A stretch of DNA of 64,000 nt, from the NCBI RefSeq assembly GCF_000379725.1, contig NZ_KB903666.1:62001-126000 (forward strand), given 5' to 3'. Both the position numbers and the translations under genes were made by a program. This document shows positions 37,751-42,079 of this stretch, one piece after another. Source of the stretch: Cytophaga aurantiaca DSM 3654 (GTDB lineage Bacteria; Bacteroidota; Bacteroidia; Cytophagales; Cytophagaceae). Under the pieces are notes generated by a model. It was not told the DNA's origin. It made no database searches and saw nothing but the letters and a program-made list of their open reading frames with translations. How positions within the stretch are numbered: position 1 is the first letter of the stretch; the number at the start of each line of letters is the position of its first letter.

Positions 37751-39046
37751 ATGCACAGCACTCAACAATTGCAATCCGGTGAATTAGCCGGAGCGAAGCA
37801 CATAAAAATCTCTGAGAACTTAACAGATATTCCTCAAGCGCTTTATCAATATGCCGATACGCTTGAAGTACTGGATTTGTCTGGTAATGAATTAACTGCA
37901 CTGCCCAACGATTTTGCTCGCTTTAAAAACTTACGCACCTTATTTTTGTCGAATAATAAATTTGAAGTTTTTCCGGAAGTATTAAGTCATCTGACACATC
38001 TTGATATTGTTGGGTTTAAAGCAAATCAGATAAAAGAAATTCCGGAACATGCACTTCCGGTTTCATTGCGCTGGCTGATCCTGACAGATAATAAGATTAC
38101 CGCACTTCCACATTCTATTGGCTTGTGCATCAACTTACAGAAAGTAATGCTGGCCGGAAATCAATTGGATAAGTTGCCGGATGAAATGGCTTCATGTACA
38201 CGCATCGAGCTGCTACGGATTTCTGCGAACAAACTTCAATCTATACCAGCCTGGCTATTTTCGTTGCCTAAATTAGCATGGCTGGCCTTTGCAGGAAATC
38301 CCTGTTCATTCAGAACGGCAGAGTCTGCTATCGAGGTAGATGTACTCTCCTGGAATTTGATTGAGATACAGCAGCAACTCGGCGAAGGTGCCTCAGGTAA
38401 TATTTATAAAGCTGTACGCAAAGATTCTGCTTCGGATATTGCAGTTAAAATTTTTAAAGGTGCCGTTACTAGCGATGGGTTACCTGTTGATGAAATGAGG
38501 GCCTGTATACAGGCAGGTATCCATGAGAATATGGTATCTGTAAAAGCTGTAATCACCGATCATCCGGATCATAAAGAAGGTCTGGTAATGGATCTGATTT
38601 CTTCTGATTATAACAATTTAGGTTTTCCTCCAAGCCATGTGACCTGTACACGCGATGTATTTTCAACGGATCAGGTGTTTACTCTGGCAGAAGTTATTCG
38701 TATTTCTCGCGGTATTGCTTCGGTTGCTGTTCAGCTGCATGAAAAAGGTATTATGCATGGAGATCTATATGCCCATAATATTTTGGTGAATAAAAACGGA
38801 CATCCGCTGTTTGGAGATTTTGGCGCGGCTACGATTTTCTCACCCAATGATCCGGCCTTGGCAAAACGTTTGGAACAGATAGAAGTAAGGGCTTATGGCT
38901 GTTTGGTAGAGGATTTGCTGAATCTCCTTGCAATGGATCAGCTAGCTGAGGCAGCATACATAACTGAGATCAAAAATCAGTGTATGAATGAGGATATTGA
39001 ATCTCGACCAACGTTTAAAAGCATTTTGGAAAGATTACAAATATAA
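37751..39046 (+). CDS. Leucine-rich-repeat protein kinase
   Basis: 431 residues, cytoplasmic (no signal peptide). Residues 36-185 hold about six LRRs of the LxxLxLSxNxLxxLP type. Residues 205-430 form a Ser/Thr/Tyr kinase: glycine loop LGEGASGNIYKA (210-221), Lys233 in AVKIFKG, HGDLYAHN (336-343) replacing the usual HRD, and DFG at 356-358. The catalytic Asp338 and Asn343 are present, so it may be active. LRR kinases of this compact type occur in Bacteroidota with unknown targets. Coupled by position with the ATE-like gene. Confidence 0.9.
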   Translation: MHSTQQLQSGELAGAKHIKISENLTDIPQALYQYADTLEVLDLSGNELTALPNDFARFKNLRTLFLSNNKFEVFPEVLSHLTHLDIVGFKANQIKEIPEHALPVSLRWLILTDNKITALPHSIGLCINLQKVMLAGNQLDKLPDEMASCTRIELLRISANKLQSIPAWLFSLPKLAWLAFAGNPCSFRTAESAIEVDVLSWNLIEIQQQLGEGASGNIYKAVRKDSASDIAVKIFKGAVTSDGLPVDEMRACIQAGIHENMVSVKAVITDHPDHKEGLVMDLISSDYNNLGFPPSHVTCTRDVFSTDQVFTLAEVIRISRGIASVAVQLHEKGIMHGDLYAHNILVNKNGHPLFGDFGAATIFSPNDPALAKRLEQIEVRAYGCLVEDLLNLLAMDQLAEAAYITEIKNQCMNEDIESRPTFKSILERLQI

Positions 39047-39147: not shown

Positions 39148-40680
39148 ATGAAAAAAGTAATCTTTTCAGTAATATTTTTGGCAAGTCAAGCTTCATTTGC
39201 GCAGGAGTCAAGTGAGTTATATCTTCATCAAAATCTAGGAGAGAACATCAATTCCAAAGCTACAGAATTAACACCCCGTATTTCTGCCGATGGTAAAATG
39301 ATGTTTTATGTAAGAGACGGCCATCCGGATAATAAAAATCCTCAGGATATCTGGCACTCAGAAAAAGATAGTCTTGGCAACTGGAGCCCTGCAGTACGTG
39401 CGGATGATAAGATCAATCAATTACCTGCAAACTGTGTATGGTCTGTAAACGCCGATGGTAAATCTCTTATGATCCGTGGTGCTTACGATAAAGGAAAATA
39501 CATCGGTAAAGGTTTTTCGCTGACACGTATGACAAAAGATGGCTGGACAGATCCTCAGATGCTTGTAATTAAAGATTTGGCTAAGGTTAACTTAGGGGTG
39601 AATGACGGTGCGTATTTATCTATTGATGGTAACGCAATCATTTTTACTATGTGTGATAAAAAGAAATGTACGCTATACGATCTGTTTGTGAGTACAAAAC
39701 TTCCGGATGGTACATTCACAAAACCTGTAAAATTAAGTACAACTGTTAACACAACGGATTTCAATGAGTTTGCACCTTTCCTGGCTGCAGATAACAAAAC
39801 ATTGTACTTCTCAAGCGATCGTCCGGGTGGTGCAGGTTTAACGGATGTATACAAGACAGAGCGTTTAACAGATACTTCATGGTTGGCTTGGAGCGCTCCT
39901 TTAAACTTAGGACCTCATGTAAATACTGCCTCTAAAGATGCCTATTATGTTACCGATGCAAAAGGTGAATATGCATATATGGTTTCTGATTTGAATTCAT
40001 ACGGTAGTGCAGATATTATTTCATTCAAATTGAAAGAAGAAAATAAACCAAAGCCGGTTGCTTTGTACGATGGTAAAATCTACAATGCTAAAACAAAAGA
40101 ATTGATCCTGGATGCTACCATTGAATATAAAATCTATCCGGATAATTCTGAAGAAGGTGTGGCACATACAGATCACGAAACAGGTCAATACAAGATCATC
40201 TTGCCATTTGGTCACAGTTATTCAATTGACGTTTTTGCTCCGGGTTTTGTATTGGATTACGATACAATCTCTGTATCGAATAAAAATGAATACATTGAAA
40301 TTACGCGTGATTATTACCTTACACCAATTGAAGTAGGACAAAGCATTAAATTAAATCACATTTACTTTGAAACGAGTAAATACGACTTGTTATCTGAATC
40401 GTATTATGAATTGGATAAGGTTGTAAAATTACTGCATGAAAATCCAACGATGCAAATTGAAATTGACGGACATACGGACAATCAAGGGAATGCGGATAAA
40501 AATCTTATTCTTTCCCAAAACCGTGCAAAAGCCGTTATGGATTATATTGTTTCAAAGGGGATTGCTGCTGATAGAATTACATATAAAGGCTTTGGCATGA
40601 CCAAACATATAGTTGATAACGATACGCCTGAACACCGTAAGTTGAACAGAAGAGTTGAATTTACAATTATCAAGATGTAA
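39148..40680 (+). CDS. OmpA-family outer-membrane protein with PD40 propeller
   Basis: 510 residues. Signal peptide to SFAQ (19). Residues 30-295 contain repeating PD40/WD40-like beta blades (ADGKMMFYVRDG; SIDGNAIIFTM; DNKTLYFSSDRPGGAG), then a carboxypeptidase-regulatory-like domain (305-385). Residues 395-510 are an OmpA peptidoglycan-binding domain (DGHTDNQGNADKNLILSQNRA). This layout matches Bacteroidota proteins such as the T9SS-linked PorE/SprF-type partners, which tie outer-membrane machines to peptidoglycan. Role here is inferred. A perfect terminator follows. Confidence 0.88.
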   Translation: MKKVIFSVIFLASQASFAQESSELYLHQNLGENINSKATELTPRISADGKMMFYVRDGHPDNKNPQDIWHSEKDSLGNWSPAVRADDKINQLPANCVWSVNADGKSLMIRGAYDKGKYIGKGFSLTRMTKDGWTDPQMLVIKDLAKVNLGVNDGAYLSIDGNAIIFTMCDKKKCTLYDLFVSTKLPDGTFTKPVKLSTTVNTTDFNEFAPFLAADNKTLYFSSDRPGGAGLTDVYKTERLTDTSWLAWSAPLNLGPHVNTASKDAYYVTDAKGEYAYMVSDLNSYGSADIISFKLKEENKPKPVALYDGKIYNAKTKELILDATIEYKIYPDNSEEGVAHTDHETGQYKIILPFGHSYSIDVFAPGFVLDYDTISVSNKNEYIEITRDYYLTPIEVGQSIKLNHIYFETSKYDLLSESYYELDKVVKLLHENPTMQIEIDGHTDNQGNADKNLILSQNRAKAVMDYIVSKGIAADRITYKGFGMTKHIVDNDTPEHRKLNRRVEFTIIKM

Positions 40681-40701
40681 GTTTAATTTAATATGATATT
40701 C

Positions 40702-40740
40702 AACGGGTTTCATCTGTACAGATGAAACCCGTTTTTTTTT
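40702..40740 (+). terminator. Strong rho-independent terminator
   Basis: Perfect stem AACGGGTTTCATCTGT with its exact complement (16 bp, no loop spacer), then nine T. Ends the OmpA-family gene and separates it from the RNA element at 40788. Confidence 0.95.
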
Positions 40741-40750
40741 GCTTTTATAC

Positions 40751-40783
40751 TTCGTTATATCGGATAAAAAATTCTTATCTTTG
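40751..40783 (+). promoter_or_regulatory. Promoter for a structured RNA
   Basis: TTCG (40751-40754), 21 bases, then TATCTTTG (40776-40783), a perfect TAnnTTTG box. The predicted start, near 40788-40790, coincides with the first base of the RNA's closing stem. Confidence 0.6.
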
Positions 40784-40787
40784 TATT

Positions 40788-40934
40788 GCAAGCTTGTATA
40801 CATTGTCAATGGCCGACATATACGCATGGATTTAACAAAAAATCGTTTATCTGTACTGTCAAAAGTCACATAACATTTTTTCCAAAAATAATTGTGCGTG
40901 CGCCGACAGTGAATTCACAAGCTTGCTTTTTTTT
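40788..40934 (+). ncRNA. Structured small RNA, 6S-like candidate
   Basis: A ~147-nt transcript is predicted between a -7 box and a T8 tract. Its ends pair perfectly: GCAAGCTTGT (40788-40797) with ACAAGCTTGC (40917-40926). Further inside pair CATTGTC/GACAGTG (40801-40807, 40905-40911, one G-U), GGC/GCC (40811-40813, 40902-40904) and ACGCAT/GTGCGT (40822-40827, 40894-40899, one G-U), leaving a long AU-rich apical part. A rod with a closing stem, internal bubbles and own promoter is the shape of 6S RNA; Rfam has a separate 6S-Flavo family. It could instead be a leader of the epimerase gene (ATG 40973). No protein frame fits. Confidence 0.55.
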
Positions 40935-40972: not shown

Positions 40973-42079
40973 ATGATCATAACACAGATAGAACTTTATA
41001 AGTCGCCGATTAAACTTAAAGAACCGTTCAAAATTTCTTTAGGTGTATTGACACATGCGAATAATGTGATCGTCCGTATTCATACAGATAGCGGATTAGT
41101 TGGTAGTGGCGAATGCAGTCCGTTTATGACCATTCATGGAGAAAGCATGGATACCGCGTTTATAGTCGGGCAGTATTTAGCGAAGCAGCTGATTGGTACA
41201 TTGTGCCTCGATATAGAAGCGAATGTTGCTTCGATGGATAAAGTAATTTACGGCAATGCCTGTATTAAAAGTGCATTCAATATTGCTTTATATGATCTGG
41301 CATCTCAGCATGCAAAACTTCCGCTGTATGCTTTTTTAGGTGGCACAAATGATAAGATCATTCAGACAGATTATACCATTAGTATTGATGAGCCTTCAAA
41401 GATGGCGAGCGATGCAGTGAAAATTAAAAAGAATGGTTTCGAAATTATTAAAGTTAAACTGGGAGGCACCAAGGAACAGGATGTAGAACGCATTCGGATG
41501 ATTCGTGAAGCTGTAGGTTATGATATTCAGATCCGTGTCGATGCAAATCAGGCCTGGAAGACAGCTGCTGCTTTGGATACCTTAAAGGCGCTTGCACCAT
41601 ATAAGATACAGCATTGCGAAGAACCGATCAACAGAGCACTTGTTGAATTTTTACCGGAGATAAAAGCAAAAAGTCCAATCCCGATCATGGCTGATGAATC
41701 CTGCTGCAATCATTTAGATGCACAGCGATTGATCCAGTTAAAAGCTTGCGATTCGTTTAATATTAAGCTGAGTAAATCGGCAGGAATTACAAATGCATTG
41801 AAAATTATAGCGCTTGCAGAACAGGTTGAAATGCCGGTTCAGATAGGAGGTTTTTTAGAATCACGCCTCGGCTTTACCGCTGCGGCACATCTAGCATTGG
41901 TAAGTAATTCAGTTTGTTATTATGATTTTGATACGCCACTTATGTTTGATGAAGATCCGGTGCTTAACGGGATCGTGTATCAGTCAAGGGGAGTAGTTTC
42001 ACTTAAAGATCACATCGGATTGGGTGCATCCTTCGATCCTGCTTATTTAGATTCATTAAAGGTGCTTCTGATAAATTAA
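40973..42079 (+). CDS. Dipeptide epimerase (enolase superfamily, L-Ala-D/L-Glu epimerase-like)
   Basis: 368 residues. N-terminal capping domain (1-125) and a modified TIM barrel. The catalytic Lys pair is in KVKLG (near 160) and NIKLSKS (near 264), metal ligands in RVDANQAW (near 189), CEEP (near 216) and ADES (near 241). The final barrel loop GGFLESRLGFTAAAH fits dipeptide epimerases. The enzymes recycle murein peptides or other dipeptides by inverting the C-terminal residue. A dipeptide epimerase from Cytophaga hutchinsonii has been crystallised, which agrees with the species inference. Stand-alone; a structured RNA sits just upstream. Confidence 0.93.
   Translation: MIITQIELYKSPIKLKEPFKISLGVLTHANNVIVRIHTDSGLVGSGECSPFMTIHGESMDTAFIVGQYLAKQLIGTLCLDIEANVASMDKVIYGNACIKSAFNIALYDLASQHAKLPLYAFLGGTNDKIIQTDYTISIDEPSKMASDAVKIKKNGFEIIKVKLGGTKEQDVERIRMIREAVGYDIQIRVDANQAWKTAAALDTLKALAPYKIQHCEEPINRALVEFLPEIKAKSPIPIMADESCCNHLDAQRLIQLKACDSFNIKLSKSAGITNALKIIALAEQVEMPVQIGGFLESRLGFTAAAHLALVSNSVCYYDFDTPLMFDEDPVLNGIVYQSRGVVSLKDHIGLGASFDPAYLDSLKVLLIN

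Follow-up and report, generated by a model that had tools for sequence, protein, structure and literature searches.

Locus and promoter

The window is a stretch of 64 kb from Cytophaga aurantiaca DSM 3654 (genome code G000; 4.42 Mb in 46 contigs). On its forward strand it carries a predicted structured small RNA of about 139–147 nt at 40788–40934, below called the rod RNA. The upstream neighbour is an OmpA-type gene (39148–40680), named from its translation. A terminator hairpin of 14 pairs with a T run (40702–40733, forward strand) parts this gene from the promoter of the RNA. Positions 40751–40775 are spacer behind that terminator, and the feature proper begins at 40776. The downstream neighbour is a dipeptide-epimerase-type gene (40973–42079), on the same strand and 38 bases past the T run of the RNA; its name comes from a reading of the translation and from the label in the first-pass annotation. 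Farther upstream, positions 37751–39046 encode a predicted protein of 431 aa, the translation of which looks like leucine-rich repeats with a protein-kinase-like domain behind them; a homologue is present at the equivalent position in a Cytophaga MAG (L077).

The promoter element, read in the window sequence, is TATCTTTG (40776–40783, forward strand). It is of the type TAnnTTTG, the −7 consensus of Bacteroidota housekeeping promoters. The 147-nt segment (40788–40934, forward strand) opens 4 nt past this box. Its 5′ end is GCAAGCTTGT; its 3′ end is ACAAGCTTGC, followed by eight T residues (TTTTTTTT). The T8 run (40927–40934, forward strand) stands directly after the closing stem and is a probable terminator; a T-rich run is also present in the relatives that were read. 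TAnnTTTG occurs 90 times in the 64-kb window versus 83 expected, which is the chance level, so that a lone box is meaningful through conservation only.

Secondary structure of the RNA

The window RNA folds as a single rod with a free energy of −37.4 kcal/mol (z −3.6); none of 200 shuffled sequences is equally stable. Its ends close over 10–12 pairs, and further helices are nested inside. The joint fold of 17 aligned loci has five helices, namely a ten-pair closing stem and four nested ones. The match of the covariance model R1 (described below) covers 40788–40928. All parts lie on the forward strand.

The closing stem P1 (5′ arm 40788–40797, 3′ arm 40917–40926) is changed on both sides in 6 of its 10 pairs, and P2 (40810–40814 and 40900–40905) in 4 of 5. 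Covariation likewise places P3 (40822–40826 and 40895–40899), the 5′ arm of which reads ACGCA here versus GCTCA in most relatives; its middle pair varies on both sides among the 22 loci (U-A, G-C, C-G). Above P3 the consensus structure opens into an unpaired central bubble, with TGGATTTAAC on its 5′ side (40827–40836) and CCAAAAATAATTG on its 3′ side (40882–40894). The bubble is asymmetric, of about 10 and 13 nt, and may or may not correspond to the bubble of 6S RNA. P4 follows, with the nearly invariant arms AAAAAAT (40837–40843) and ATTTTTT (40875–40881). The rod is capped by the apical hairpin P5, with the 5′ arm TATCTGTACT (40848–40857) and the 3′ arm AGTCACATA (40864–40872), both taken from the covariation alignment; in 6 of 22 loci one of its pairs is G-C in place of A-U.

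Eleven further sequences were folded and gave z values from −5.1 to −1.5. The weakest fold is that of L063, for which 18 of 200 shuffled sequences are as stable. In the upper half, the minimum-energy folds of the single sequences L002, L004, L011, L013–L015, L017 and L052 do not follow the consensus.

Conservation and covariation

With the window segment as blastn query, 17 of 98 genomes (the own genome included) match at E ≤ 1.3e-5; with the threshold relaxed to E ≤ 10 every genome has a match, and beyond the 17 these are short and weak. The match spans from the −7 box or the stem (query positions 28–49) to the T run (193–197) in 9 of the 16 relatives, extends to the query end in L002, and is a shorter inner match in 6. 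A −7-like word, taken as the best word within the last 35 nt 5′ of the stem, was scored in 21 loci (L063 left out): it agrees with the consensus at 6/6 positions in 14 loci, at 5/6 in 4 and at 4/6 in 3. The 6/6 boxes (14/21 loci) stand 4–5 nt 5′ of the stem.

In an unfitted MAFFT alignment of 17 loci, 99.0% of the cells of the paired columns can pair, and 12 of 35 pairs are changed on both sides; no shuffle out of 500 reaches the observed score, and slid controls pair at 28–53%. The alignment of 22 loci, which was fitted to the model and thus leans towards the structure, gives 98.0% paired cells; both partners vary in 17 of 35 pairs, again none of 500 shuffles reaches the score, and slid controls lie far below it.

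Mean column conservation in the 22 loci is highest in the arms of P4 (0.97), followed by the arms of the apical hairpin (0.87 and 0.93) and P3 (0.90–0.91). It is lower in P1 (0.81–0.83) and P2 (0.70–0.81), and lower still in the loop between them (0.51–0.56). The sides of the bubble reach 0.67 and 0.76, and the lowest value is that of the terminal loop (0.37). Upper and lower stems differ to a moderate degree.

The promoter element and the T run are thus kept while the flanks diverge, and base changes are compensatory, as is characteristic of a stand-alone structured small RNA. It is conservation that sets the element beyond chance. The first-pass annotation had described a perfect −7 element followed by a 147-nt segment, and a ten-base pairing of its ends around nested helices with a T8 end, and had named compensatory changes in relatives as a check; the description is borne out by the conserved box and the fold, and the changes are present in the alignments.

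Distribution

The covariance model R1 was built from the 17 blastn loci, with the window copy among them; its score of 161 bits on that copy is therefore a score on a training sequence. At E ≤ 0.01, R1 has matches in 21 of the 241 order genomes, or in 20 once a false match in G094 is dropped. Carriers are three genomes of family f20 and, in the window's family, 17 of the 19 genomes sampled; in the other two, G005 and G011, R1 has no match at E ≤ 0.01, and the RNA there may be lost, diverged or hidden by assembly gaps. In a phylum-wide sample of 198 genomes, two have an R1 match at E ≤ 0.1: a true one in the own genome and a false one in G219. The rejected matches L060 (G094, E 0.003) and L062 (G219, E 0.05) read as a plain inverted repeat and an unrelated stretch. 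Nine opposite-strand echoes on true loci (16–26.1 bits) are left out of the R1 counts.

A pattern scan of named genomes gave 15 contigs, from Cytophaga, Sporocytophaga, Cytophagaceae and Cytophagales MAGs, two MAGs labelled Chitinophagaceae and one Pseudarcicella MAG. Fourteen of the 15 loci duplicate loci already in the set (L074 and L076 on the ground of identical coordinates of their neighbours); the Pseudarcicella locus L063 alone is new and is confirmed by R1 at 103 bits. A match on a viral contig (L078) was discarded as a chance pattern match within a reading frame, without an R1 match at E ≤ 1e-6. With duplicates and L078 removed, the set holds 22 loci from 17 of 19 family genomes, three genomes of another family and the Pseudarcicella MAG. 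Genome G014 has two copies, L058 (C1:76537–76671) and L061 (C1:88057–88191), on opposite strands and about 11.5 kb apart; both have the closing stem, and in both the bubble reads CATGAAAA instead of CATGGAT.

6S RNAs of Bacteroidota and Cytophagales collected for comparison

The 6S-Flavo family (RF01685) originates from PMC2864571. 6S RNA is reported as expressed in F. psychrophilum (PMC9723704) and as found by dRNA-seq in B. thetaiotaomicron, with evidence of product RNAs (PMC7366714).

RF01685 matches 21 of the 198 phylum genomes at E ≤ 0.01, nine of them over its cut-off. In the order it matches 4 of 241 genomes at E ≤ 0.1. Two of these weak matches, L079 and L080, on reading show a closing stem, a T run and a 6S-like core; L081 and L082 do not. 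Model R2 was built from 17 of 20 fetched RF01685 loci together with L079 and L080, and picks L096 (E 3.6e-10), L097 (E 0.027) and L098 (E 0.10). L079, L080 and L096–L098 served to build model R3, so that its scores on these five, L097 of genome G007 included, are by construction. These Cytophagales 6S-like RNAs have a closing stem and a T run in those that were read; L097 lies at G007:C1:3394929–3395079.

R3 matches nine of nine RF01685 loci given to it from outside its training set, in the right place and at E 6e-4 to 8e-7, and one of six RF00013 loci (L083, E 0.03). It matches 42 of the 241 order genomes at E ≤ 0.1, the weakest at 4.9e-6; some of these were read individually. An HMM of 29 R3 loci, L097 excluded, finds L097 at E 3.4e-17 and L083 at 2e-5; the 29 loci were themselves found with R3. 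An Rfam scan at E ≤ 0.1 left all five Cytophagales 6S loci unreported and found the flavobacterial control, and R3 recovers the five. R3 fills the gap left by that scan, and the Cytophagales 6S RNAs are a candidate new Rfam family or an extension of an existing one.

Relation to 6S RNA

6S RNA (SsrS) is a rod-like stand-alone RNA. A 6S-like function of the rod RNA is possible but doubtful: rod and bubble would imitate an open promoter and trap the housekeeping RNA polymerase, whether the RNA is a diverged 6S RNA or an unrelated replacement. The overall architecture resembles that of folded Bacteroidota 6S RNAs. Common to the rod RNA, 6S-Flavo and the Cytophagales 6S RNAs of R3 are a stand-alone gene, a rod, a closing stem with a T run immediately behind it, a bubble and an apical stem.

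Sequence and covariance searches do not bear out an identity with 6S RNA. Rfam gives nothing at gathering score in the whole 64-kb window. In 801 bases around the rod RNA it gives ten unrelated matches at E ≤ 10, the majority of which lie on the upstream terminator hairpin; no row for RF01685, the 6S-Flavo model by which the first-pass annotation had proposed to check its reading, or for RF00013 (6S/SsrS) is present at E ≤ 10 there or in two relatives. The two relatives have 2 and 4 weak matches at E ≤ 10, none of them 6S, the best being to a fungal snoRNA model (E 0.07; 19.9 bits versus a cut-off of 40). Genome-wide, G000 has no RF01685 match at E ≤ 1 and no RF00013 match at E ≤ 10. Rfam also holds small RNA families of Bacteroidota such as FopS (RF04319), likewise small RNA genes of the phylum; the FopS match (17.6 bits versus a cut-off of 56) lies at 40673–40741 in the upstream terminator region, off the rod RNA.

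The models of Bacteroidota 6S RNA give only noise. Against 17 rod-RNA loci with filters off, R2 and R3 have best E values of 0.74 and 0.27, both off the RNA; of 16 R2 matches, two overlap the rod RNA in the same orientation (E 1.8 and 6.2), and of 34 R3 matches none does. In the reverse direction, the best R1 match to 15 6S loci is at E 1.2 and off the 6S RNA, and there is thus no covariance match either way. The HMM of 29 R3 loci, run against 22 rod-RNA loci at E ≤ 10, has no match on the RNA; its best (E 0.94) lies elsewhere. The rod RNA is about 140 nt long versus 152–201 nt in 15 6S RNAs. The 6S word AAANCNTGT is present in 27 of 29 R3 6S loci versus none of 22 rod RNAs. The word GCAGGCC was not used to separate the two RNAs, because GCANGCC occurs in 5 of 22 rod RNAs. 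A promoter-like word, AAWTRTG, on the 3′ side of the bubble (compare TAnnTTTG) was given no weight as polymerase mimicry, because a partial match is likely by chance in so AT-rich a stretch. The rod RNA has no detectable homology to 6S RNA, and by every test applied here it appears not to be the family's canonical 6S RNA under another sequence.

Both RNAs occur in one genome. G007 carries the 6S RNA L097 and a rod RNA, about 339 kb apart. B. subtilis has two 6S RNAs in one genome, so that coexistence in G007 does not by itself exclude a 6S-like function. Among the 241 order genomes, R3 6S and R1 rod RNA occur together in 1 (G007), the rod RNA only in 19, 6S only in 41 and neither in 180. This near-complementary distribution (42 genomes with 6S, 20 with the rod RNA, one with both) would fit a 6S-like function, as would the finding that, of the 20 sampled carriers of a rod RNA, 19 have no detected 6S RNA, G000 among them; but with neither RNA found in 180 genomes, phylogeny and model sensitivity could account for the pattern.

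With laxer filters, R3 run on 38 relatives yields in the window's family only G007 and a match at E 4.2 in G009, which sits in the start of a gene. Weak 6S candidates in G000 and relatives are L099–L102 (R2, E 0.1–1), L103–L109, L112 and L113 (R2 or R3, E 0.7–5), and L114–L118 (E 6.7–9.8). By eye, none of L099–L109, L112 and L113 has a closing stem with a T run behind it. L110 and L111, from other families, do resemble 6S RNA. Since weak candidates remain, absence of 6S RNA in the window's family means that it was not detected. L104 (G008; R2, E 2.0) and L107 (G012; R2, E 3.1) have a 6S-like 3′ word and no visible closing stem; they are possibly diverged 6S RNAs in genomes with a rod RNA.

A more specific course of events is improbable. 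It would have an RNA of separate origin replace 6S RNA in Cytophagaceae, with the canonical 6S RNA lost in most members after a two-RNA stage that persists in G007, and the rod RNA acting as a polymerase decoy. If true, the replacement would be a convergent reinvention of 6S RNA.

Among the papers listed on 6S RNA in Bacteroidetes and Cytophaga, on 6S-Flavo and on small RNA of Cytophaga hutchinsonii, none gives a description of the rod RNA; a 6S prediction for Cytophaga in Wehner 2014 is possible. Among titles found for Cytophaga hutchinsonii and small RNA, none is about its small RNAs. The rod RNA is absent from the consulted parts of PMC2864571, PMC9723704, PMC7366714 and PMC2190773.

Proposed role

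The rod RNA is structured, conserved and independent of its neighbours. It would come from a gene for a small non-coding RNA that occurs in Cytophagaceae and in a few of their relatives among the Cytophagales, and that is probably transcribed from its own housekeeping-type promoter and probably terminated at the T run directly behind the closing stem. The predicted molecule is a single rod composed, from the base upwards, of closing stem, second stem, short P3, asymmetric central bubble, A6/U6 helix and apical hairpin. The lower stems, where pairing is kept and letters change, would serve as a handle, and the upper half would be the recognition module. On this pattern of conservation, a protein partner is the simplest inference. 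That the RNA is a new, lineage-restricted, trans-acting and protein-binding RNA distinct from 6S is a prediction for which belief and doubt are evenly balanced. It may act as a decoy or scaffold non-homologous to 6S RNA, with RNA polymerase as one candidate partner.

A base-pairing regulatory RNA, in which the bubble or the apical loop would pair with target mRNAs, is unlikely. A stand-alone gene that has a promoter box and a T run of its own is consistent with it, as is the moderate conservation of the bubble stretches (0.67 and 0.76); against it, conservation is lowest in the terminal loop (0.37), and what is nearly invariant is not a single open seed but the upper helices on both of their strands. 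Letters kept on both strands of the upper half together with a free terminal loop fit protein recognition better than seed pairing with mRNA.

A cis-acting leader of the downstream epimerase gene, offered by the first-pass annotation as its second reading, is very improbable. The start of this gene at 40973, shortly past the T run and in the same orientation, would suit a leader. An epimerase follows in only 2 of 22 loci, however, and in 9 of 22 the next called gene runs the other way. No adjacent gene is common to different genera among the neighbour clusters shown (genes were called as simple ORFs from 80 aa upwards; flanks are mostly 1.5 kb). A constant link with one same-strand downstream gene is thus lacking, neighbours vary, and for these reasons the rod RNA is not taken as a leader. 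The first-pass annotation stands as to a stand-alone structured RNA with a promoter box, finds no support as to 6S membership, and is wrong as to the epimerase leader.

An mRNA of a tiny protein, starting at the ATG in the bubble and running for 15 codons in the window (MDLTKNRLSVLSKVT), has next to no probability: 15-aa frames also occur in four relatives (L043–L046), but the ATG reads ACG in 5 of 22 loci, the frame varies from 2 to 35 aa in the other 17, and base changes track pairing. No single frame stays open across the whole RNA in more than 7 of the 22 sequences; the first-pass annotation, too, had seen no fitting protein frame.

The predicted protein-binding rod RNA, which would act in trans, belongs to a structured RNA family without a match in Rfam 15. 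The family is present in Cytophaga and Sporocytophaga, which are gliding cellulose degraders. Its near-complementary distribution with 6S RNA makes a direct test possible, and raises the question whether a family without detectable 6S RNA may use another RNA to restrain its RNA polymerase.
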